A stretch of 64,000 nucleotides of DNA, taken from positions 1,409,708 through 1,473,707 of the forward strand of contig NC_015676.1 in NCBI RefSeq assembly GCF_000217995.1. Direction: 5' to 3'. Shown one piece after another: positions 1,296 to 17,423 of this stretch. The notes below the pieces were generated by a model, which made no database searches, was not told where the DNA came from, and was given only the letters and a program-made list of their open reading frames with translations. Both the position numbers and the translations under genes were made by a program. The stretch's first letter is position 1; every line of letters begins with the position of its first letter. The DNA is from Methanosalsum zhilinae DSM 4017 (GTDB lineage Archaea > Halobacteriota > Methanosarcinia > Methanosarcinales > Methanosarcinaceae).

Positions 1296-4200
1296 TCATT
1301 CTAACAAGATCTTTTCCCTTGCAATCTTTTCAATATCTGCTGCATTGATGCTGCCATCCGGACCATCCTCAGAAGTAACTAGCTGGTCTTCATAACCATT
1401 GTCGATGTACCACTTTTGTTTTCTTTCCCAGCTCTGTCTATAGCTTGGTACACTGAGCATACCCAAGTGTTCCCAATAGAAGGTATCTCCTTCGAAACTG
1501 ACAGTGAAATCTGGGAGTCTGTAATCATTTGGATTACTGTCTTTATTCACCAATTTTTTTTCGTACTCATAGCTAATTCCTAATCTTGTCAGTGTATCAG
1601 CAACAATAACCTCAGATTTTGATCTGACAAGTACATTTTTGGCTGTGCGATGTATCAGATGGTTTGCATAATATCTTTCATCTGCTTCGGGCCTTACTGC
1701 CATTACAAACATGTTCGTGTTTCGCAGCAATGCTGCTGATTCCCGTGGACTGCGAAGCCTTTCAAGAACATCTGTATCCTTTTCGATAAGAAGTACCATT
1801 TTTTGGCGGAAACGGGTTAGACCAGTGTAGAGTAGTTCTTTAGATAAGGTAGAAGCATTCTTGGGAAGAATTAAGAATACATAATCAAAGTCGCTTCCTT
1901 GAGCTTTGTGAACTGTTAACGCGTATGCAAGCTCAAGACTTCCATCAACTTCGTTTCGATAATAACGATAAGATACTTCTGGCTGGGTCGAATACATTAC
2001 ATCAAGACTATTGTAGTTTTTGTTAGTTGAAGTGACCAGACCAATCTCGCCATTGGCAACATAGTTAATTCCTATTCCCTGAGGCCATGCTTTTCGGGAA
2101 CAGTTGTACAACTGAATTACTTTATCAGTCCAGACTATTTCTTGTTCTCCAAAAGGACGAGTACCTTTTCCTCGAGAAAAATTAATCATTCCACCTCTAT
2201 AACGGGCCTGAATCTTACGGTTTACTTCTGTAGTACCAAATTCATGATTCCTCACCGGACTAAGAATTTGCCAGTGCTCAGCATTACGTGGATCATGATC
2301 TTCATTCTTCTTGTTATTTCCAATTCCTATACTTTTATTGAATTGCAGGTAATCGGCACTACCTTCCTTTATACCAAGTAGGTGCTCCATTCTGGAAGAC
2401 AATAATTCATCAAGCTGCAGATGATCTCGCCAGTAATGAACTTCTAAATCTCCATCTACTTCCTTTCTAGCTACACGAGAAAGTAAAGCATCATCACCTG
2501 GTATTGGATCTTCACTCAGGTAACCATCTGCAAGTTGTAGTGCCAGGCTATTATGGTCTTCATGTCTGGCACGCTCAGTCAAATGTGCGAGACAAGCATC
2601 CCTTGTTTCTACTGAGAGTTGGAACTTTTCAGGATATAATTTCTTGATGGTATCAGCATCGGCCTTCAACCAGCTGACAATATCAACGAATGGACGACCT
2701 GGACCTATTGGAGGAAGTTGATTTGGGTCACCTACCAAAACCAAACGGGAAACTTTGTTTAAATCCAGTGCACGGAATAAAACACCCAATAGGTCCATTG
2801 GAATCATTGAAGCTTCATCAATAATGACTGTAGGTGCTCCTTTTTCTTCTCCACCATCATATCTAAGAGAAAAGTTACTTGGATTTATCCACTTATTTCG
2901 CATAAGAAACTGATGAATCGTATACGTGTCTCTTAAGGTTTTATCATCTCTTTTGGTACGTTCCATTAATCGCACGCGAGCTTTTCCAGTGGGTGCCAAG
3001 AGCAATATAGGACGTTTTCCTTCAAGCTCTTCCAGACCTTTGAGGAATACTTTAAGGACGCTTGTCTTTCCAGTGCCTGCTCTACCTGTAAGCACGCTAA
3101 AGCGCGATTCGTATATTTTGCTTAATGCTTTGGCTTTTTCGATTCGGGCACGTTCTTCTACTTCAGGTGGAAGCTTTGAACCCTTACCTTCTCCAAACTC
3201 TTCTTTTAGAAGAGTTTCCCAAGACAAATCCGAATCATGTGCATCGTTTTTCTTTTTGACTCTTCTTAAAAGCTTTCTACTGACTTCCTGTTCCAATTCG
3301 GATAAAATCTTAAGTGCCATGGTTGGAGGATTTGAATCTGTGTGGAAATCAATAACTTCCTGATAAAAACTCTGTTGTCCAAGCACCAGTTCCGAATCTG
3401 GTAGACATGCCCTTCTTTCCGGGAAAAGCTTTCTGATTCTCTCAATAACTTCACTAAAAGGTAACAGAGTATCCCCATTAGCAGCTGCCTCCTTTAGTAT
3501 AGAAACTGCACATCCTCTTACACGACGTGTATCATCCTGTGGAATAATATCATCTGCCGGAAGGAACCTGGCTGCATCTCCTTCAGGTCTCATTCCTCTA
3601 TCAATAACTTCCAATGAGATTATATCTCTATCAGGTCCACCCTGATCCATCTCTGAAATCAGATATGGATTCTCAACAAGTTCGTCATCTGTTGCATCAA
3701 TTCCTGAATTATTCCTTTCATTTGGGTCAACAATTCTTCTCACTTGGATAGGAGTGAGTTCAAATCGTACGAGTAATGCAAGCAACTTGCGACGTGATGA
3801 AGGATAAGCAGACCACCTTTTGACTGCCTCTTTCATTGGTTTAGCATATTTTTTTTCTTCGCATTCCTGTCGACCTTCAAGTATTGACAATAGGTATTCC
3901 CAGGCATTTTCCCCTTTCTTTATGCGAGGCATCAATACCTGCTTATGAAATGCGGTGCCTACATCCACACCAAGGAACTGAAGTACACTTCCTGCACCAG
4001 GGAAAGGTCCACGATTGTGCCAAACCTCAGACAGCACATCATTCAACCATGCAAGATGTCGGTTCCATTCTCCAGCTACTTTATTTTCAGCTATAACAGC
4101 TTGAAGGGATTGTATCAAACGTTCGAGTGCACCTATTGATGTATCATCGCTGACATGTTCTCCCACATAAGAGAAATCCAGCATTGTTCCATCTGGAATA

Positions 4201-4934
4201 CGACAAATGATATTGGATGTATCATAGCCCTCGCGCAGATATTCATGATAAGGGAGTAAAAAGCCTTGGTTCTCAAAGTCATGAGTAATACATCGAGACC
4301 ATATTGGGTAATCATCATCGTACTTAGGAGGTTTCTTGTCAAAGAATTGCTGTGGCCCTATGTTGGAGATCCGACCAACACCAACCAAAATTCGATTCAG
4401 AGTTTCGTCGAGTGGATTTCCTTGGTTACAATAGAAGAAGACAAGCGAACTGTCCTTTTCCAATTGTTTCCAAAAATTATTCAACATCTCCAGTTGTCTA
4501 TCTGGTTCAAAGATCCAACCAAATTCTTTGTTGGGATCATCTGGACCTCGAACACTAAGATGCTCATCTTCACAGATCTGCCTGAAATTTTCCTCACGCA
4601 TCCAGCGATATGGTGATGGGCAAACTGAGTATGGAGGAATCATTTCCTTTTTGGATGGGAGTTTTCTGAAATCAAGAGGATCATTATGAGTAATCTCAAA
4701 ACCAATGGATGAAAAAGCAATAGGATCCCTTGAACAGGGAGGCTGCCACCCCTCCAATTCTGCCAGCGGCTTACCAGCACATTCCACTTCTCTTTCAAGT
4801 TTCGCAGGATCAGCCAAATTTTCCCTTATATGTTTCTGGACAACACAATATGCATTCTGGTCTGGATGGTCACAAATATGACCATCCCACCCTCGGTCAT
4901 GCCAAACCAAACGAACTGAAAGATGCTTACTCAT
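1296..4934 (-). CDS. RecD-like helicase fused to C-terminal PD-(D/E)XK nuclease
   Basis: 1212 residues. About 500 N-terminal residues are unrecognised. A superfamily 1 helicase core follows, with Walker A GRAGTGKTS near residue 615, Walker B VIIDEAS near 703, a DPNQLPP motif, and the late TVHKAQGSDFD motif near 1008, which is typical of RecD-like enzymes. The last 110 residues look like a PD-(D/E)XK nuclease: a glutamate in SEVIVADTL, then RLPDF, then WEHLG and a basic WERKQKW segment. The enzyme would unwind and cut DNA. Its ATG abuts the stop of pglXI (TAAATG), so it is translationally coupled inside the BREX-like operon. A canonical type 3 BREX has the BrxHII helicase; this RecD-nuclease is not a standard member, and its role as effector is inference. 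Confidence 0.8.
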   Translation of the reverse strand: MSKHLSVRLVWHDRGWDGHICDHPDQNAYCVVQKHIRENLADPAKLEREVECAGKPLAELEGWQPPCSRDPIAFSSIGFEITHNDPLDFRKLPSKKEMIPPYSVCPSPYRWMREENFRQICEDEHLSVRGPDDPNKEFGWIFEPDRQLEMLNNFWKQLEKDSSLVFFYCNQGNPLDETLNRILVGVGRISNIGPQQFFDKKPPKYDDDYPIWSRCITHDFENQGFLLPYHEYLREGYDTSNIICRIPDGTMLDFSYVGEHVSDDTSIGALERLIQSLQAVIAENKVAGEWNRHLAWLNDVLSEVWHNRGPFPGAGSVLQFLGVDVGTAFHKQVLMPRIKKGENAWEYLLSILEGRQECEEKKYAKPMKEAVKRWSAYPSSRRKLLALLVRFELTPIQVRRIVDPNERNNSGIDATDDELVENPYLISEMDQGGPDRDIISLEVIDRGMRPEGDAARFLPADDIIPQDDTRRVRGCAVSILKEAAANGDTLLPFSEVIERIRKLFPERRACLPDSELVLGQQSFYQEVIDFHTDSNPPTMALKILSELEQEVSRKLLRRVKKKNDAHDSDLSWETLLKEEFGEGKGSKLPPEVEERARIEKAKALSKIYESRFSVLTGRAGTGKTSVLKVFLKGLEELEGKRPILLLAPTGKARVRLMERTKRDDKTLRDTYTIHQFLMRNKWINPSNFSLRYDGGEEKGAPTVIIDEASMIPMDLLGVLFRALDLNKVSRLVLVGDPNQLPPIGPGRPFVDIVSWLKADADTIKKLYPEKFQLSVETRDACLAHLTERARHEDHNSLALQLADGYLSEDPIPGDDALLSRVARKEVDGDLEVHYWRDHLQLDELLSSRMEHLLGIKEGSADYLQFNKSIGIGNNKKNEDHDPRNAEHWQILSPVRNHEFGTTEVNRKIQARYRGGMINFSRGKGTRPFGEQEIVWTDKVIQLYNCSRKAWPQGIGINYVANGEIGLVTSTNKNYNSLDVMYSTQPEVSYRYYRNEVDGSLELAYALTVHKAQGSDFDYVFLILPKNASTLSKELLYTGLTRFRQKMVLLIEKDTDVLERLRSPRESAALLRNTNMFVMAVRPEADERYYANHLIHRTAKNVLVRSKSEVIVADTLTRLGISYEYEKKLVNKDSNPNDYRLPDFTVSFEGDTFYWEHLGMLSVPSYRQSWERKQKWYIDNGYEDQLVTSEDGPDGSINAADIEKIAREKILLE

Positions 4935-7739
4935 TTAAATACCTCCAACCCTAGTCACAGCCTGATCATACCACATCAACAATTTCGGATCCTCTTCCAG
5001 AACCTTGTTCGGTATCAGATCAGCCACCTTAATTATCGTAGAATAATCCCTCTCCTGCCATGCCTTCTTAAAACCAGCCCGTACAGCCTCCATCCTGAAC
5101 ACTTTGAGCTTCTTGGTAGACTGCCTGTACTCCTCGAACTCTTTCAACAGCGACTTCTCACGCAGTTTCTCCAGGTCCCCTGCCTTGTTGGGATCTGGCA
5201 CATACCACCTATCCTTAGCCTTAGTCATCAATCCCGAATCATTCTTCTGGCGATTACGCATCTCTGGCCAGTTGGTAGAAAGATAACTATGGATCTGGCT
5301 TGGCACGTCACCAATACCATTGTAGCTGAGGAAATTCTGGTTTAGCAATTCCCTCAGGTCCAGTTCCTGTTCATTCTTACTCCAGCCACCAAGCTCCTGC
5401 ATGAACTGCGGATTAATATCCTGGAATGTCTGCGGTTTTACCTTCAGAAGCTGGCGTAACCACTGAATTGCAGAAGCTTCATCTGAAACAAAAAGCTTTG
5501 TTTGTACAAGCTGTCCTGATGTCAGTTTCTTCCGATCGTACTCTGCAGCCTGCTCTGGCAGGAAATACATGCCGTCGCGTTCAATGAATCGCTGTCCAAG
5601 TCCTATCTGGAACTCCTGGCTTGAGATTGGCACAGGATAGCCTTTACGAACATAGTAGGCTACCATCTGGTCAAAAAGAATACGCGGGTCACGTTCTGGT
5701 ATCAGTTGTAGCAAAGCGCCCTGATATTTAGTTACAGCAAGGTATTCTAAATGGGTTCGTACGAAGTCCCAAACACCTTCTTCAGTTGCTGCTTCATTCT
5801 TAAAGCGCTCTTCAAAGCCACCGTTAGGTTTGTAGGCGGAGATGACAAGATCCTGTTTGACGGCTGTTGGTGTAGTACACGCTTTAAAGCTCCCTTTTTT
5901 CTTATCCAACGCTGATATATTTGCAACAATGAAACCTGCATCTGTTAAAGCTGTTTGGATACTGTTCCAGACAGAAGCCTTTGTATTAGAGAATTCAACT
6001 GTCATCCAGCGTCCAGGTTTTAACAAATTGTAGGCAGTTTTAAAGCAGTTTGTCATCAATAATCTATACTCATTCAATCCTTTATTTTGCACATTATTTT
6101 GAATCGCTTCTGGAGTATTATCCGTTAAGATTCCTAACCAAGACTCAAGGAGGCTATTTAACTCAGAATAATTTAAATTAGAACCAAATGGAGGATCAAG
6201 AAAAATATAATCATAACATTCTTTACTTACAGAAGCAGCAGCTGCACTACACGTTTCAGAAATACATTCACCTTCTTTCAAATTACTTCTAAATGCTTGC
6301 CATCGAACACGTAAAGCAAGACGTTCAAGTACATTTGTTTCAACTGAAAGTGATGCTACATAGAGTGTTCCACGAAGACTCGTGATAACACCACCACCAC
6401 CACCAAAATAATTACCCAAATGAAGTCTCAATTCTCTTCCAACCCAACTCATCGTAGATGTATACCATGCAGTATATCTTGGATTTTTATCTCTTAATTT
6501 CTTAAGAACAGAAGACAACACCCATAAATTTCGTTTAGTGTAAAACTGATGTACATGAGTGATACCATGAGAAGTCTTTGGCTGTCGAGTATTATAACCA
6601 TTTGGCAATTTAGTTGAGGGAAAATGGTAAGGAATTTCAGCATTTACTATATTTTCAATCAGCTTTAAATCAAATTGATCAGGAATCTTTTCAAAACGCT
6701 TTTTATCAACAGAATAATTAATTAGAACTGGCACCTGTTTTGCCTGTTTTACATTTTCCTTAATCGCGGAATCGTACTTTGTTACCCAAGCCCTTTCCAT
6801 ATTACGCTTGGTAAGGTTGGCTGAGCAGTAAGGACAGGGAAAAACATCATTTACTTTTCCTCCTTCCCGATCTAATGCTGCTTCCCAGAATATAACCTCA
6901 TTAGCACACTCAGGACAAACATAAACATCCGACCAAACGGTATAATTTATTCTTCCCATCTTTCCATCAGTGTGCTTAGTCTCATACATCCAGCCACATT
7001 CTTCTTCAACTTCTTTGAGGATGCGTGTTGCTTCTTTTTCAAATGCCTTCACATCCATAGGAGTGTTGTAGTTGTAGGCGATGAAAGTAGCTGCCGGAGA
7101 AAGATCATTAAGGACCGCCCTTCGCACACCAAGCTGCGAAAAAGGCACCCATCGAGTCTTTCCATCATCGCCAGTCTTCTGCTGCAAAATGGTTCCGTCA
7201 GGTTTGACTTGGTAGCCAAGGGATTCCACAGTCTTGCGGTCACCACACATCTGTGCAGCCACACCGGTCATACCTGTGCCACAGAAACCGTCAAAAACTA
7301 TGTCTCCGGGTTCTGTATAGTGGAGAATATACCGCATGATGGCTTTGTGAGGTACTTTGGTGTGGTATGAGTGAGCATTGTAGATGGGATCGTTCTTGCC
7401 TTCGCTCACGTCGGCTGCAAAGGGTTCCCTGTGGTACTTGTAATCTGCAGATTTTTCTGGTTTTTCTGCTTCCCACTCGTTAATGAAATCCGTGATCCAG
7501 GGATTTGGGCAAGCAGTGTAGTATGGTGGGTCACTCAGGTGAAGGATGTCTTCGTCCGAACCTATGGGGAAACCTTCTATCTTGCGGAACTCCGGGTCCT
7601 GCAGTTTTTCACGCAGCTTTTCGGTGAAGTAGTTGCGGCGTTCCTCTTCGTTTTTAAAGGTCATGCCGAGACAGGTGACCTGCTTTGGAGAGTTGTTGCT
7701 GCCTTCGGAGAAATTGTCAAATAAGGTGGTATCAGTCAT
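4935..7739 (-). CDS. pglXI: BREX type 3-like DNA methyltransferase PglXI
   Basis: 934 residues. Visible are an early DPPYYTACPNPW segment near residue 72, the SAM-binding FDGFCGTGMTG motif near 150, two CxxC pairs (CPEC, CPYC) near 276-306 that resemble a zinc ribbon, and a catalytic-type LDPPFGSNLNYSEL motif near 515. This fits an N6-adenine or N4-cytosine methyltransferase. In BREX systems such an enzyme marks host DNA so that phage DNA can be recognised as unmarked. It starts 9 bases after the stop of brxC and abuts the next gene, so brxF, brxC, pglXI and the helicase form one operon. Methylation type and target cannot be read from sequence. Confidence 0.85.
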   Translation of the reverse strand: MTDTTLFDNFSEGSNNSPKQVTCLGMTFKNEEERRNYFTEKLREKLQDPEFRKIEGFPIGSDEDILHLSDPPYYTACPNPWITDFINEWEAEKPEKSADYKYHREPFAADVSEGKNDPIYNAHSYHTKVPHKAIMRYILHYTEPGDIVFDGFCGTGMTGVAAQMCGDRKTVESLGYQVKPDGTILQQKTGDDGKTRWVPFSQLGVRRAVLNDLSPAATFIAYNYNTPMDVKAFEKEATRILKEVEEECGWMYETKHTDGKMGRINYTVWSDVYVCPECANEVIFWEAALDREGGKVNDVFPCPYCSANLTKRNMERAWVTKYDSAIKENVKQAKQVPVLINYSVDKKRFEKIPDQFDLKLIENIVNAEIPYHFPSTKLPNGYNTRQPKTSHGITHVHQFYTKRNLWVLSSVLKKLRDKNPRYTAWYTSTMSWVGRELRLHLGNYFGGGGGVITSLRGTLYVASLSVETNVLERLALRVRWQAFRSNLKEGECISETCSAAAASVSKECYDYIFLDPPFGSNLNYSELNSLLESWLGILTDNTPEAIQNNVQNKGLNEYRLLMTNCFKTAYNLLKPGRWMTVEFSNTKASVWNSIQTALTDAGFIVANISALDKKKGSFKACTTPTAVKQDLVISAYKPNGGFEERFKNEAATEEGVWDFVRTHLEYLAVTKYQGALLQLIPERDPRILFDQMVAYYVRKGYPVPISSQEFQIGLGQRFIERDGMYFLPEQAAEYDRKKLTSGQLVQTKLFVSDEASAIQWLRQLLKVKPQTFQDINPQFMQELGGWSKNEQELDLRELLNQNFLSYNGIGDVPSQIHSYLSTNWPEMRNRQKNDSGLMTKAKDRWYVPDPNKAGDLEKLREKSLLKEFEEYRQSTKKLKVFRMEAVRAGFKKAWQERDYSTIIKVADLIPNKVLEEDPKLLMWYDQAVTRVGGI

Positions 7740-7748
7740 TTTTAATCC

Positions 7749-10700
7749 TCATTCTAGCACAATACGTACTTTGTTCGGATCCTTGCCTCTTGTGAGACTG
7801 TCCACATAGTCATTGAACATACTCTTGAACTCAGCCGGGCTTACAGGTCCTATCTCCACCATTTTTTCGATCAGTTCAGATTTTTTCACCGGAACCTTTT
7901 GCAGACCAGCTAGAACAGTTCTGACTATCTGTATAAACTCATTATTCAAAGGCTGAGGTAGCTCTCCTTTAATTATGAAATCCTGAACCATCTTTCTTTC
8001 ATCATCCTGAAGAAGTTGATTTACATTTTCCTGTGTCACAGGATCTTCCAGGTTGTTCAGAAGAATTGTGGTCCACTGATCAGTTATCTGGTCAAGTTGT
8101 AATTCCATTTGATTAAGAAGAGTTGACGCCTGTACTTCACCTTCCATAGATGGTTTGAATTGGCAGTGTGGACATACCGGATTTGAGATAAGTTCTTGCT
8201 CCATAAGGTTAAAACAACTCTTCAATCCAGCCAAACGATTACGGAAATCAGTAAGTTGTTGTTTTGGCATCAGGTCTATACCTGCCAGTTTATCTAAATT
8301 CTGTAAAAGGGCGTCATTTATTAATGCTGACTTCTGTTTGTCATCATTGACACCCAGGCGTGACCTTGAGTGTAATGTACTGTAAATATTGATATATTCC
8401 TGCTTAAGCTGCTGCAGCTTTGTGTTTATTTCCTGAGATTTATTGGATAGCTCTGATAGCTTTGCCTGTTGCAGATCCATCAGGACATCATTACGTGTGG
8501 CTCTCAGGCGATCTGTCCACTCATGATCAGTAGGCAGTACCGTTTCTGCAGTGGTCAGCCATGATACAATACTACTCTGATTCATTACGAACTCACGCAA
8601 TGATTCGAGTTCATCCAGTGCCTGAACGGCCTTTTCATGAGAAGATACTTCTTGAGCACTGTAACGGAAATTCTTAAGCTTTCCTGGTGTAGAGTAAACC
8701 TGTAACGATTCAAAAAAGTTTTTTGCATCCTCTATCCCGCTTGTCTGATTGGCAAGTTCAGTACCAACCAGCAGGTTCTGTCCCCAGAATGAAATACCTT
8801 CTCTCATAATCTGTTGTGCCATTACCATCCTATTAACGATCTTCCCCACAGCATCCTGAAGGTTCTGTACAGGCTCGTCCTTTCCCTGGGTCAGGAGTTG
8901 TGCCATTCCTGGCGACATGTTCAAAAGCTCGAAAAGTGCCTTAAGAGCAGGTAAATTCCATTCCTTAGGTTGTTCAACGTGCTTGAATCTGATCAGTTCA
9001 TCCATGGAAGTAGCAGCTAATTGTTGAAGGCCTGTAGCATCGAACTTTTTACCAGGGATTGATAACACAACATCACCGGAATTCACAAGTGCAGCTAGAA
9101 TAACTACAACCCATTCAGGTTCAAGTCTTGCACCAACTGGATTCATATATTCAAGTCCATGGTCGTCGAGGATGATCTCACTACGGTTGACCACTTGTCC
9201 ATGTCCTTTAGACTTAAATTCTTCAAGGATTAAATCAGCATATCTTGATTTATGTGGATCTATCTTCTCCCCGTCCAACAGTTCCAGAGCATCCAGAACA
9301 GCAACAGCCTGTTTTGTACGACTCTGGCCGGCAATAGCCCTCAATGCATCCTGAGCAGCCTGCGGTCTATTATTTCCAGTGATCATTACTGAGAATATTG
9401 GATAATCTGGAGCCTGATCTGCAAAGTGTGGTTCCAGACATACACCTGCAATAGTATTGACCAGATCGCGGAAGTTAACGGTCTCCTGTGAAGTTAAACC
9501 AGGCAGACCTTTTATGGATTTTCCTTTTGCCCACTCGGTCATCAATTTCGTTCGTCCCTGATATGTTATTTCAAAAGTATCTGTCATATGTTTCTGCAGC
9601 CATTGTACCAGTTTCTTCAGGAATTCATTTGCCTTTGATTCATAGGTGGCTTTAGCGTGTCCCGAAGATGTGGAAGCAAGGTCTAAAGCTGCAGCATAGC
9701 TTTTTAAGACAGAATGGAACTCTTCATCTGTTACTTTTAGTCGGAAGAATACTTCATCGGAGTTCTTTTCGTTTATGTAACGCGATAATTTGTTACTGTA
9801 ATCAAAAACCTGGATAAAATATAGATAAAAATCTCTCTGAGGCACTGCAGTAGAACGTTCATCAGGAGAACCGAAGAATAGATAACCTGTCCTTGCTGCC
9901 CTGTGCTCCCGCCATTCAAGTTCATGCTGCCATATTTTATAACCTGTAACATATGTCGAATCCGTAGATTCCATCACCCTTTTAAGCGCCTCATAGTAAT
10001 ACCTATCAAGTTGGGACTCCTCAAGGCTTTCAGTTCTCTTTTCTATTAAAGCATCGAAGTCATCGGTCTTTTTCAGATCCAGATAGAACTGACGGTTTTC
10101 CTGGTTGAAGGAAATGAACTGTCCGCTTACGGTCTTATGTATCTCGCGAAGTACAGTTTCCACATGAGTTTGAAGATCCTTATCTGGATCATCACTACCC
10201 ATCTCAGCGATCATTGGTTCAAAAAGTAGCAAACTGTCACGCAGCTCTTCAGCTGTAGCACCTAAACTTGAATAGATATCACCTGTTGTAAGGCGATGCA
10301 CAGACAAAGCATGTATGAGACGTAAAGCCATAGGCTTATATTGAGGTCGAGTAAAAGCCCGTTGTATAAGGGACTCTAATACTTGGCTGCAGTCAACCAC
10401 TTTTCTTATTTCAGGAATAGAACGGAAAGAAGCATTCTGCTTCAACGTATCCCAATAACTATCAAAAGATATAAGCCCAGGATAATCCTCAGGCACCTCT
10501 CTATCCATAATGGATTTCATTTCGATAGAAAGCGTTTTGAGCACTTCACGCTTCTCTATTATCTTGACACGTTCGAATGTATCAATATAATCTGGGTGTA
10601 CCGGGAAAAGCCGGACAAATTCATCCATCCTTTCATTAAGCCCGCCATAGAACTTAGCAAAAGGAGTCAGATATTCACGTATTTGTGCTTGCTGCTCTGT

Positions 10701-11489
10701 TGTTTTCTTAAGCAAACGTTCAGACACAACGAATTTAACATCACTACGTGCAATAACAACCTGTTCAAAACGATCCTTTACTCTGCGGATACTATCAGCT
10801 ACGAATGCAAAACGAGGGCTATCAAATATTGCTTCCTGTACCCCAGCAATAAAGCGGAAACGCAGGTCTTTGCAAACCTCGCCCACTTCCCTTAAGAAAT
10901 TCAGATCAAGAATCAGTTCTTGATCCTTACGGCTACGTAAATAATCCAGAAGTTCATCCACTACCAGTAGTAGCCCATGATCAGGATACACTTGATGGAA
11001 AACAGTCATCATTTCTTCAAAGGACCTCTTATTACTGACTACTTCACTCGCTTCAGGGAAAACATAATCAACATGCAGTTTGTCAAGTTTCTCCTCAAGT
11101 TCGGCTACCAGAATGTCCCTCAAAGACATCGTTGTTGAACCAATCTCTGTACGGATAACCTTGAATCTGCCAGCAATCTGCTTAGCAGAATCTTTAACAC
11201 CATCATGTTTAAGTGAATCCAGTAAAGAATCGTCTTCTGCAAGGCTGGATATTACTGACATCAAGTGAGACTTACCAGTACCATAATTACCAACAACCAA
11301 TATTCCTTTATTATCTATAGGCTGATCGAATTGTAATTGAGGAATGACAATATCAGTAAGCCGTTCTGCCATTTCTTCTGAAATTACATATGTATTTACC
11401 AAATGATGAGCTGCAGTGGATTTATCAGCAGCCCGTAGCTGAACCACCGATTCAATAGGATCGAATTGGATAAGATCTTCATATTTCAT
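7749..11489 (-). CDS. brxC: BrxC-type P-loop ATPase (DUF6079 family)
   Basis: 1246 residues, the usual very large size of BrxC/PglY ATPases. Walker [10 protein letters not shown] lies near residues 67-77 and Walker [13 protein letters not shown] near 174. The middle and C-terminal parts are rich in charged helices, and a CPHC pair lies near residue 1130. The N-terminal [15 protein letters not shown] region is typical of the DUF6079 ATPases found in BREX loci. BrxC is essential for BREX defence but its biochemical action is poorly understood. It lies directly downstream of brxF and upstream of pglXI, the order of type 3 BREX. The start at 11489 follows a weak AGGTAGG-like site. Confidence 0.85.
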
Positions 11490-12918: not shown

Positions 12919-12936
12919 TGTATAAATATATTTATA
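12919..12936 (+). promoter_or_regulatory. TATA-box promoter of the methyltransferase-NurA-HerA operon
   Basis: TATAAATATATTTATA lies about 50 bases upstream of the methyltransferase ATG, within a T/A-rich stretch. This fits an archaeal TATA box with transcription starting near 12950 and a short leader carrying an AGAGAG site. Confidence 0.6.
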
Positions 12937-12975: not shown

Positions 12976-14136
12976 ATGGCACAAAACAATTTTCCTGGAA
13001 ACGACTTATCTTTTCCTCTTAATAAGCTTCCTAATAAAAGTAATTCTTATCTGAGGCTCAACACCATTTGCCCGTATTTTACTATGTTTCCGCTTGATTA
13101 TCCTTTTGAAGTTTTAAAATACGCAAAATCAAATGATAAAGTTTTAGATCCTTTTTGTGGGAGAGGGACAACAAATTTTGCTGCAAGATTAAGAGGGCTG
13201 TCTTCTGTTGGAATTGATGCAAGTCCTATAGCATCCGCAATTGCCATTTCAAAATTTACGAATACGACACCTGAACAAATAATATCTTTATGTCAGGAGA
13301 TATTGACAGATTCAGATAAACCCGAAAATGTTCCAGAAGGTCCTTTTTGGACTCTGTGTTATCATTCTTCTACCCTAAACCAGATATGCAAATTGAGAGA
13401 ATCTTTTTCGGAAGAATGTAATACGGATACATCTATTGCTTTAAGGGCATTAACTTTGGGAATTCTGCATGGACCACTCGGAAAAACAGTTGATTCATAT
13501 CTATCGAACCAAATGCCAAGAACATATGCTTCAAAACCAAATTATTCAGTGAAATACTGGGAAGAACGTGGTCTTTTACCTAAAAATATTGATTTGCTGG
13601 AGGTAGTAAAAAGAAGGGCAAAATACTCATTGTCTTCATTACCACCATATGTAGATGGCGGAATATTGAAAGAGGACAGTCGCAACCCTATAAAAAACAG
13701 TTCACTTCCACTAGAAGAGTTTGATTGGGTAATTACATCTCCACCCTATTACAATATGAACACATATATCCCTGATCAATGGATAAGGAACTGGTTTTTG
13801 GGTGGGAATGATAAAGTTGAATATTCATATTCTAAGCAAGTTTCACATTCATCAAAAAAGAAATTTAGCTCAGAATTAGCAAAGGTTTGGAAAAGCGTTG
13901 CTGACATATGTAATCCAAATGCTAATTTAATGATTCGTTTTGGATCACTTCCTAGTAGTCCTTGTAATCCTTCAGAACTGCTAGAAGAATCTCTCGAAGA
14001 AGCAAACTGTGGATGGGAAATAAATAATATAAAATCGGCAGGAACAGCAGAAAATGGTAGACGTCAATCTGAACAATGTGTAAAGAACTTGGGAAAAGCT
14101 ATCGAAGAAATAGATTTGCATGCCATACTGAGGTGA
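12976..14136 (+). CDS. Site-specific DNA methyltransferase, probably N4-cytosine or N6-adenine
   Basis: 386 residues. The SAM-binding motif DPFCGRGTTNFAAR lies near residue 57 and the catalytic TSPPYYNMNTY near 255; SPPY is most common in N4-cytosine enzymes. The intervening 190 residues probably contain the target recognition part. It is the first gene of a rightward operon, and its TGA overlaps the ATG of the NurA-type gene (ATGA at 14133-14138), indicating translational coupling with the nuclease and the HerA ATPase. The most natural reading is a protective methylase for a NurA-HerA restriction complex, which is inference. It is unrelated in length and layout to the PglXI proteins next door. 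Confidence 0.85.
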   Translation: MAQNNFPGNDLSFPLNKLPNKSNSYLRLNTICPYFTMFPLDYPFEVLKYAKSNDKVLDPFCGRGTTNFAARLRGLSSVGIDASPIASAIAISKFTNTTPEQIISLCQEILTDSDKPENVPEGPFWTLCYHSSTLNQICKLRESFSEECNTDTSIALRALTLGILHGPLGKTVDSYLSNQMPRTYASKPNYSVKYWEERGLLPKNIDLLEVVKRRAKYSLSSLPPYVDGGILKEDSRNPIKNSSLPLEEFDWVITSPPYYNMNTYIPDQWIRNWFLGGNDKVEYSYSKQVSHSSKKKFSSELAKVWKSVADICNPNANLMIRFGSLPSSPCNPSELLEESLEEANCGWEINNIKSAGTAENGRRQSEQCVKNLGKAIEEIDLHAILR

Positions 14137-15309
14137 TGAAAGACGTTTGATGTTCATTCTCTCCCCGAACTGAAAAAAGCAATATATGAAAGAGCTCAGT
14201 CAGATAAAAAAATACTAGATTCACTTAGACGAGAAGTTCGTTCCTTTGCTTCAGAAGTCCACACAATTAAGCCCTATACTACGACAGCTGTTTCGTTAGT
14301 TGCAAGTGATGGTGGAAATAATCAACTTTCCTTTGATCCTTTTTATGTTCAATTAGTTCGTGTTACCGATTCCTATGGAAAAGAATTATGTGTAGATGCT
14401 GTGTCTCCTTCAACTGATACAGATGAATTAGGCAAGGCGCAGTTTAATTCTGACGGTACTCCCAAAACTGCTCTTGGAAAGATGATGAAAGATCTTGGAG
14501 TAGATAATCCTCCATTTTTGAATAGATTAAGTCCTATGATACCTAAAGGATCTGACATTCGCAAAAATCCAAATTCTGTTAATCAAAGATGGGTATTAAC
14601 TTATAGGGATCTATGTGAGTGGGCCGTATTGTATGAAAGAATATGTCACGCAAATTTTGCCACAGACACTTTAATTGTTAGAGACGGGTTACTTAGAAGT
14701 AAAATATTTTCTGGGGAATTGTTCATAAGATGGAGAAAGAAAGTAGAGGAAGCAATAGATAGGATTTACAAAGAAGACCATCGAAGAATTTTTCTTGTTG
14801 GGTTAGCTAAACACAGTAAAGTTATCGTGCGATATCAACTGGCAATGGCTATTGATGATACCTTTCCATCAGGGGATGCCAGATTTGTTCGAATACCACG
14901 TGATTTAGAAGCTAAAGCATACATTTGGAATGAATATGCTAGAGGCGTAGAAGTTGAGGGGGAAGGTATCGAGGCTCCTAAGTTTGTGGCAGGTGATATG
15001 TTCCTTGTTAGATTTGGGCCAATGAGTGGTGATCCTATATGGGCTGTAGATATATTTTCCAAGCAAAAAGAGGATGCATCGGAAATATTTGGTTATCTTC
15101 TTAATGATGCGATAAATGGGTTTCCTGTTCCTTTCTATCCTCGATGTTTACAAAAGGCACATGAATTTGCACAAGTAGTAGATTTTGATCTTGAAATATT
15201 TCAAGATCATATTTATGAAGCTGTTAGAGATCTTCTTCCAGACAATAAAAAAAGTATTGTGGATTCTTGGAGATTCCGTTCAGATCTTTCAATGAGGCGA
15301 TATGGATGA
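14136..15309 (+). CDS. nurA: NurA-domain nuclease with frameshift at the 5' end
   Basis: A NurA nuclease would be the end-resection partner of HerA. Motifs visible in one frame are SLVASDGGNN (first catalytic aspartate), LIVRDGLLRSKIF (second aspartate) and LVGLAKHSK. That frame has no start codon between a TGA at 14137 and a GTG at 14401, and a start at 14401 would lose the first catalytic motif. The ATG at 14136, coupled to the methyltransferase stop, reads ATG AAA GAC GTT TGA and stops; dropping one T of GTTT joins it to the NurA frame (MKDV-DVHSLPELKKA). So the gene is either frameshifted by one base or read by +1 frameshifting at GTT TGA. The full product would be about 390 residues. Confidence 0.75.
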
Positions 15310-17423
15310 AATTATTTCCTAAAGACAAAGTAGTTGGTATTTTCAGGGGTTTCAGTCAAGGTGGTATGGAGTTTCATGCAGAAATTATGCTCCCTTATAG
15401 AAATGAATTTCAAAGTGTTCCCATGCATGGACAATTTTTACTTGTTCAATTGGAGAATGAAAATGAAGCTGTTTTGGGAAGAATAACATCTCTCTCATCT
15501 GAAGGTCGATTAGCGTCTAGTTCCGGGGAAGATTATGGCATCCGTGCTATCAATGATGATAGAGTCATTCCAGAAGATTTGCGTAAACAGTATCTGAAAT
15601 ATCGTGTTGATATTCGGGTATTGGGCGTCTTGAGGCTGGAAGATGGATCTATTGTTTTCGCACCATCTCATAGAAGACTACCTCATGTAGGGAGCAAAGT
15701 AGCTTTTCTTTCCGATAATATAATGAGAGAAGTTGCAGGCCACAATTTAGACGGTGTGGAATTAGGATATTTTGCACTTGGAGAGTTTGTCTTTGGAGGC
15801 ACTGATGATAGACTCAAACAAGAGCCATGGATTCGAATTAAATCACCAGATGTTATTCCACGTTTTCAAATCAAAAATCTAGTTTCTAGGAGATCATTTA
15901 TTTTTGCTAGAGCTGGTTTTGGTAAATCTAATCTCAACAAACTCCTTTTTAGTAATTTATACAAAGTAACTCCTACAATCGAAAAAAGGAATGGTAGAAA
16001 GGTTCCAGTTGGAACTATAATTTTTGATCCTGATGGTGAATATTATTGGCCAGACGACAGACATAGACCAGGTCTTTGTGATGTTCCTGAATTGGAAGAT
16101 AAATTAGTAATTTTTACTAAAAAGAAAGGGCCAAGTGATTTCTACAACTCATTTGTTGCTTCCGACATTAAACTTGATATTCGTAGATTAAGACCAAGCG
16201 ATGTAATTTCCATTGCATTGGGTCCAGATAAGCAAGAGCAACAAAATGTTAGAAAGCTAAAAGGCCTTCGTGATCAAAACTGGAAGGAATTAGTTGATTT
16301 AATACACGATCAAGGTAATCTAGCAGATGAGGAAAAAGTGAAAGAATTACTCCATCTCAAAGATGATCAGAATGCAGAAATGGCTGCCGCTAGAGCCAAC
16401 ATGACAGCAATCGTAAAAATGTTGCATGACCCAGGAAGTTGGATGCTTGATATGCTTATTTATAGTCTTAAAAAAGGTAAACTTTGCATTATAGATATTT
16501 CTCAACTAAGAGGAGAACCGGCATTAATTCTTTCAGGAATTATTCTCCAAACAATATTTGAGTTTAATCAAGCCCAGTTCACCAATTCAAATCCTGAAAC
16601 TATCCCTACCATTGCGGTAGTAGAGGAAGCACAATCTGTATTAGGAAATAAAGGTAGTTTGCGAACTTATGTCGAATGGGTAAAAGAAGGAAGGAAATAT
16701 GATTTGGGTGCTGTGCTTATTACTCAGCAACCAGGAAGTATCTCTAGTGAAATATTGAGCCAGGGTGACAATTGGTTTGCATTCCATCTACTTTCAGCTG
16801 GTGATCTCCAAGCTCTCAAAAAAGCTAATGCCCATTTTAGTGACGATATACTAAGCACGCTTCTGAATGAACCAATCGTAGGAAATGGTGTTTTTTGGAG
16901 CAGTGCAGGTGGTAAAAGTTATCCTATTCCTCTTAGAGTCATGTCCTTTGAAGAAATATATAAAGTTAGAGATGAAGAATACAATTTACCAAAAGCAAAA
17001 ACATTTGTTCAGGAACTCAAGGATACTTTTGGGAGAACAATTAAACCTAAGACAGTACAGGAACCCCCATCAATAGATAAAGTATCCGAAAAATCAACAT
17101 TAGATGATTTTGAATCTGAAGAAGAAGAGGTAGAAATCGATTATATGGAAACTTACATTATCGATACAATTGAACTTTTTAAAACAGATGAATTAACAAT
17201 AGGTAAAATCAAAAATAATGGATTGCCATGGTTTGGAGTTCAAAAAAGGATTAGTGAATTATTACCTGATGTGATCGATAAGGATGAAAGGCTCTATAAA
17301 ATAGCATACACTATAACTCCAAGAGTTCTAAATGAAGTTTTTGGAGAAGGTAATTGGGATACTGAAGCAAGGCCAAAAAGTTCGGGATCAGGAACAACCA
17401 AATGGATAATTCTTAATAAATAA
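15306..17423 (+). CDS. herA: HerA-type ATPase / DNA translocase
   Basis: About 705 residues from the ATG at 15306, which overlaps the NurA stop (ATGA) and follows a GAGG site; an in-frame TTG at 15267 is less likely. An N-terminal HAS-barrel-like beta domain precedes Walker A ARAGFGKSNL near residue 203 and Walker B TIAVVEEAQSVLG near 434, then a GRKYDLGAVLITQQP segment typical of HerA/FtsK-class hexameric ATPases. The acidic C-terminus (EEEEVEIDY) leads into a possible winged-helix end. HerA drives DNA through the NurA nuclease. No Mre11 or Rad50 lies nearby; instead the pair sits with a methyltransferase in a defence island, so a restriction role is inferred over housekeeping repair. Confidence 0.85.
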   Translation: MKLFPKDKVVGIFRGFSQGGMEFHAEIMLPYRNEFQSVPMHGQFLLVQLENENEAVLGRITSLSSEGRLASSSGEDYGIRAINDDRVIPEDLRKQYLKYRVDIRVLGVLRLEDGSIVFAPSHRRLPHVGSKVAFLSDNIMREVAGHNLDGVELGYFALGEFVFGGTDDRLKQEPWIRIKSPDVIPRFQIKNLVSRRSFIFARAGFGKSNLNKLLFSNLYKVTPTIEKRNGRKVPVGTIIFDPDGEYYWPDDRHRPGLCDVPELEDKLVIFTKKKGPSDFYNSFVASDIKLDIRRLRPSDVISIALGPDKQEQQNVRKLKGLRDQNWKELVDLIHDQGNLADEEKVKELLHLKDDQNAEMAAARANMTAIVKMLHDPGSWMLDMLIYSLKKGKLCIIDISQLRGEPALILSGIILQTIFEFNQAQFTNSNPETIPTIAVVEEAQSVLGNKGSLRTYVEWVKEGRKYDLGAVLITQQPGSISSEILSQGDNWFAFHLLSAGDLQALKKANAHFSDDILSTLLNEPIVGNGVFWSSAGGKSYPIPLRVMSFEEIYKVRDEEYNLPKAKTFVQELKDTFGRTIKPKTVQEPPSIDKVSEKSTLDDFESEEEEVEIDYMETYIIDTIELFKTDELTIGKIKNNGLPWFGVQKRISELLPDVIDKDERLYKIAYTITPRVLNEVFGEGNWDTEARPKSSGSGTTKWIILNK

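Follow-up and report, generated by a model that had tools for sequence, protein, structure and literature searches.

A conserved methyltransferase-NurA-HerA module related to TdpAB as a candidate restriction-like defence system of archaea and bacteria

TdpAB, the closest described relative of the locus analysed here, combines a HerA-type ATPase with a NurA-fold nuclease and is reportedly a phosphorothioate-linked anti-phage system that is sensitive to that modification. The partner of this pair, TdpC, is a phosphorothioation enzyme. Work on TdpAB by An et al. (2025; doi 10.1038/s41589-024-01832-w) is cited in PMC13251355, and the titles of the PDB entries (8wet and 8wfd) describe TdpAB in complex with AMPPNP and DNA. 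A second group is formed by the canonical HerA-NurA of archaea and Deinococcus (PF09376; PDB entries 3tai, 9x1m and 7f6d), which shares with our locus the fold classes, the neighbouring arrangement of the pair and conserved acidic residues. For the Thermococcus HerA-NurA, cutting of both strands was described in 2026 and a defence role was proposed without a methylase (PMC12977600); cutting of both strands fits degradation better than resection.

More distant likenesses are found in other defence systems. SIR2-HerA and DUF4297-HerA, which the preliminary description of the locus had mentioned, also combine a HerA ATPase with an effector, and structures of defence HerA proteins were among our matches, but that description left out the closest system, TdpAB. 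The effector in the locus is NurA-fold and a methylase is present, whereas no SIR2 or DUF4297 domain was found in the three proteins with Pfam and no such gene is shared in the flanks of the related loci. The locus resembles type II restriction-modification (RM) in having a methyltransferase beside a nuclease and type I RM in its predicted ATP-driven DNA translocation with a nuclease; it differs from both in that its nuclease is a HerA-coupled NurA and in lacking a known restriction endonuclease, an HsdS and any evident domain for target recognition. HerA/FtsK motors have likewise been recruited to defence, next to nucleases, in the HerA/FtsK capture systems and BRC (PMC10853773, PMC12839542), but the partners found there (the Orc/Cdc6 ATPase, PglZ, TGT and DUF4007) are absent from the set of genes shared by our loci, and NurA is mentioned in neither of these two comparisons of HerA defence. 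No name for the trio was found in the open-licence literature, in agreement with the preliminary description, and one may exist in a subscription paper or preprint.

The window (the whole stretch of 64,000 nucleotides of Methanosalsum zhilinae DSM 4017 that was analysed) carries three genes on the plus strand at 12976-17423, placed as described before. They encode a DNA-methyltransferase-like protein of 386 amino acids (12976-14136; identified with Pfam, PADLOC, alignment and a structure model), a NurA/TdpB-like nuclease of 388 codons when counted from a probable ACG start (about 14143-15309, in a frame that is open from 14140) and a HerA/TdpA-like ATPase/translocase of 705 amino acids (15306-17423; Pfam, profile and alignment). 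A TATA-like AT-rich stretch, gtataaatatatttata, at 12920-12936 on the same strand upstream of the methyltransferase gene is a putative promoter. An ATGA overlap had been claimed for both junctions. The one between the nurA stop and the herA start was confirmed by direct reading (15306-15309), but the ATG of the methyltransferase-nurA junction (14136) does not lie in the NurA frame and encodes just M-K-D-V-stop.

The NurA frame is instead the methyltransferase frame continued past two successive TGA codons, the methyltransferase stop and a second in-frame TGA, which are followed by AAG and by ACG where relatives have ATG (14134-14145, plus strand). The first ATG, GTG or TTG of this frame is at 14401, downstream of the catalytic DGG. 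In nearly all relatives nurA begins with ATG-TTY-GAY, so that in most of them the protein starts with M-F-D or similar, and the same site reads ACG TTT GAY in the window and in locus L006, which is of another genus; in both a GGTGA-type stretch lies about 6 bases upstream of the ACG. The NurA proteins of these two loci are 89% identical with a dN/dS of about 0.03, i.e. strong purifying selection, and because of this the gene is taken to be functional, with initiation at ACG as the likeliest solution. The window nurA is therefore very probably translated from the ACG at 14143, by coupling or as a near-cognate start, and the ACG would probably be a case of natural near-cognate initiation in an archaeon. 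ACG as the apparent start of nurA was seen in two genera (window, 14134-14145; L006, near 10895-10905), the other loci having ATG, GTG or TTG. A sequencing error at this site was judged unlikely, as L006 likewise reads ACG there and lacks an ATG.

The motor protein was recognized by PF01935 (2.9e-21), a Walker A motif ARAGFGKSN and a Walker B motif VVEEAQ, in line with its earlier designation as HerA, and the Walker residues K207, S208, E440 and E441 are invariant in the family. Its best relative in the PDB is TdpA, with 8.9e-21 for the single sequence and 9.2e-34 by profile, the next match of the profile being canonical HerA (1.3e-18). In contrast to TdpA (586 residues), the window protein (705 residues) carries at its C-terminus an extension of about 145 amino acids (residues 561-705) that is poorly conserved and lies outside the TdpA-aligned stretch. 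This variable extension may help in target choice.

The designation of the middle gene as NurA also proved right, although the window protein on its own had no match in Pfam, PADLOC or NCBIfam. A profile of the family gave TdpB as best match among the PDB sequences (0.014 with five sequences, 2.3e-08 with 29), and Pfam NurA (PF09376) was matched by 6 of the 29 family members, with 4.4e-07 as best value. The AlphaFold2 model (mean pLDDT 78) was related to TdpB by both Foldseek (1e-10) and VIA-align (Z 20.7, rmsd 4.3 over 298 residues), and less closely to the NurA crystal structures (3tai and others; Z 12.4) and to Thermococcus HerA-NurA (Z 11.0). The identity to TdpB is only 16-18%, and D57, E160 and D182 (numbered from 14140) are invariant in the family. 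By profile and model the middle gene is a NurA-fold nuclease nearest to TdpB. For both window proteins, TdpAB thus gives the best matches in sequence and in fold, those to canonical HerA-NurA being weaker. No counterpart of TdpC was found in the operon and the methyltransferase is the only conserved gene in the flanks of the pair; because the defining TdpC partner is absent from the operon, we consider the module to be a relative of Tdp in its nuclease and motor and, as far as its sequence tells, not to be a member.

We then looked at how general the association of the three genes is. A scan of genome contigs yielded 26 relatives, 44-85% identical. These were combined with the window, L006 (G053), L007 (G089), L011 (G126) and the viral contig L039, leaving out L030 and L037, where the contig ends lie too near to nurA, to give a set of 29 loci with enough flank. 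The methyltransferase gene adjoins the nurA-herA pair in 25 of these, so that the association is beyond chance, as had been supposed. In the genome of L030 (Dormiibacterota) a close methylase was found at the end of another contig. By record titles the trio loci belong to about twelve phyla, two archaeal (Methanosarcinales and ANME-2, Thermoplasmata) and ten bacterial (Acidobacteria, Myxococcota, Planctomycetota, Bipolaricaulota, Poribacteria, Dethiobacter (Bacillota), Spirochaetota, Actinobacteria, Cyanobacteria and Latescibacterota), where it should be noted that many of the loci are from metagenome-assembled genomes (MAGs) and that single titles may be wrong.

We found no fourth conserved gene and no widely shared family in the flanks of the loci, and therefore the conserved unit consists of exactly three genes. 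The few shared flank pairs came mostly from two Herbidospora loci or from related Planctomycetota, the sister Herbidospora loci being the only ones that have a flank set in common at length. All three genes are under purifying selection, the NurA and methyltransferase trees agree in their main clades, and the distance matrices of the three proteins are correlated (r 0.77-0.94). This correlation was matched in none of 2000 permutations and is in part due to common descent. In a search of 393 genomes from the phylum, members of the close methyltransferase family were confined to the three that carry the trio (5e-183 or better, the next match being at 4e-42), and three of the four genomes with a close NurA also have the methyltransferase. 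In the host family the module is patchy, as it occurs in 4 of 101 genomes, and the methylase is the only recurrent neighbour of the nuclease-motor pair, which is not the pattern of a repair HerA-NurA with Mre11-Rad50. An interrupted and a degraded copy were also seen, namely L019 (12099-14745), where an insertion with a transposase-like ORF (318 amino acids) splits herA and leaves the methyltransferase and nurA genes intact, and L038 (9998-11790), where nurA is broken, the first 386 residues of HerA are gone and the methylase is intact.

As judged from these comparisons, the trio is a conserved, mobile and self-contained three-gene module. We lean towards the view that it is a restriction-like defence module that spreads horizontally, with the methylase marking self DNA and the TdpAB-like pair destroying DNA that lacks the mark. 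We regard as evenly balanced whether it stands for a separate, unnamed RM class of archaea and bacteria, one where self DNA is shielded from a TdpAB-like HerA-NurA degradation motor by a base methyltransferase and not by phosphorothioation. In the proposed mechanism the HerA hexamer would thread double-stranded DNA and feed it to the nuclease docked on it, methylation of host DNA would make the pair load, translocate or cut less on self DNA, as phosphorothioation reportedly does for TdpAB, and unmodified phage or plasmid DNA would be degraded. The defence reading given in the preliminary description is supported in so far as the module is conserved, mobile, found beside defence genes in several genomes and not a housekeeping repair system; its strict mark-or-die form is weakened by relatives that keep the pair without the methylase, since the loss of the methylase from a strict restriction system would be expected to kill the host. 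The pair on its own is thus not simply lethal.

There are four such loci among the 29 (L011, L014, L015 and L031), with intact nuclease and motor genes, intact active sites and no adjacent methylase. In L014 (about 730-804) and L015 (about 236-310), from Methanoperedens, a remnant of about 20 codons from the 3' end of the methyltransferase gene (...IDLHAILEQ-stop) still precedes an intact nurA-herA, and the nuclease and motor genes of these two loci are under constraint (dN/dS 0.12-0.19 between the two). The genomes of the methylase-less relatives, two of which are MAGs, gave no close methylase at another site. In these pairs either a trigger would be needed or another modification would replace the mark. 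The former connects to the alternative that NurA-HerA is a stand-alone anti-phage nuclease, triggered by DNA ends or phage replication products, with the methylase as an accessory that tunes or protects and is not the self mark. The persistence of the methylase-less pairs with intact active sites and under constraint agrees with this, as does the Thermococcus study, which suggests defence without a methylase (PMC12977600). Nevertheless, the methylase adjoins the pair in the other 25 of the 29 loci and remains linked to it despite changes in gene order, and within the 393 genomes its close family never occurs without the pair, so that we consider this alternative unlikely, though deserving attention. 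One methylase-less NurA-HerA (L031, 1422-9887, Murinocardiopsis) lies beside a Wadjet-like DUF2397-DUF2398-SbcC-DUF2399 set. A distant NurA-HerA pair (L012, 5947-10123; 25-28% identical) without an adjoining methylase is arranged tail to tail with DruA (PF14236, 8e-88).

The TSPPY motif of the methyltransferase is characteristic of DNA methyltransferases of the m4C type. The GRG and TSPPYY motifs claimed before are both present, the former within FCGRGT, and the protein matches PF01555 at 1.5e-10. Motif I (FCGRGT) and motif IV (TSPPY) are invariant in 24 sequences, as are S.QMPR and KP in a helical insert (84-218), and apart from the N-terminal tail the alignment shows no hypervariable internal segment that could serve in target recognition, which sets the protein apart from most RM methylases and speaks against the restriction-like reading. 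By sequence the protein thus matches N6/N4 methylases, yet the fold of its model (pLDDT 86) is nearest to TrmN, Trm11 and Trm14 (Z 17-18), which leads to the alternative that the enzyme acts on RNA, like Trm11, or on another substrate and that a change in this substrate is what the module responds to. Foldseek returned generic class I methyltransferases, hence the substrate cannot be read from these matches. PADLOC gives a type II DNA methyltransferase as the top match (residues 45-321), the profile matches the TTHA0409-type structure 2zie and m4C enzymes, no THUMP domain was found with Pfam, and the partner proteins act on DNA, all of which makes an RNA substrate quite improbable. We infer from the motif and the partners that the substrate is DNA, with N4-methylcytosine (m4C) probably as the product, in view of TSPPY.

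The surroundings of the trio bear on its mobility. In the window, BREX-type genes, PglX (PglXI) and BrxC, are found near it (1296-11489); this region also holds a RecD/UvrD-like helicase that matches PADLOC PDC-S68 at E 0. The trio is not a constant component of BREX, as no flank family is common to the window and the other loci. Defence neighbours elsewhere are type I RM (L006, L022), type III RM (L026) and DpdF (L028). The proposed check of neighbours thus gave a conserved trio in archaea and bacteria, with an enrichment in defence islands that is suggestive only, the scanned flank proteins having been picked by hand without a control set. On the phage contig L039 (3636-8091) the genes are in the order NurA-HerA-methyltransferase between the terminase large subunit and portal genes, the phage genes being identified by reading; such a reordered trio inside a packaging module fits defence cargo. 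It adjoins a ParD/CopG-like gene. This phage-borne copy and the mobile distribution could also be read as a module that stabilizes or mobilizes genetic elements (phage or island addiction) and has no part in host defence, but contigs of cellular genomes carry most of the copies, several of which lie beside defence genes, and the plasmid collection gave no match to the module, which renders this very unlikely.

That an ordinary repair HerA-NurA has an unrelated methylase beside it by chance is extremely improbable despite the shared fold classes, because the trio recurs across phyla, is nearest to TdpA and TdpB, is patchily distributed, has a phage-borne copy and resides in a genome with separate HerA-type genes (four DUF87/HerA-type matches; no protein reaches Pfam NurA), so that a canonical repair function was ruled out by the linkage and similarity data. 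The preliminary description had equated a chance neighbourhood with a methylase found only here and a pair nearest to repair HerA-NurA; the methylase turned out to be present in many phyla and the pair to be nearest to TdpAB.

The association connects a base-methylation enzyme to HerA-NurA, a pair that was long assigned to archaeal DNA repair and that was lately suspected of a role in defence. The two Herbidospora isolates provide tractable bacterial copies of the module, and the methylase-less descendants make self-protection directly testable. If the restriction-like reading is true, one nuclease-motor chassis would be paired with chemically different self marks, and TdpAB, HerA-NurA and classical RM would be joined in one scheme with exchangeable self marks.
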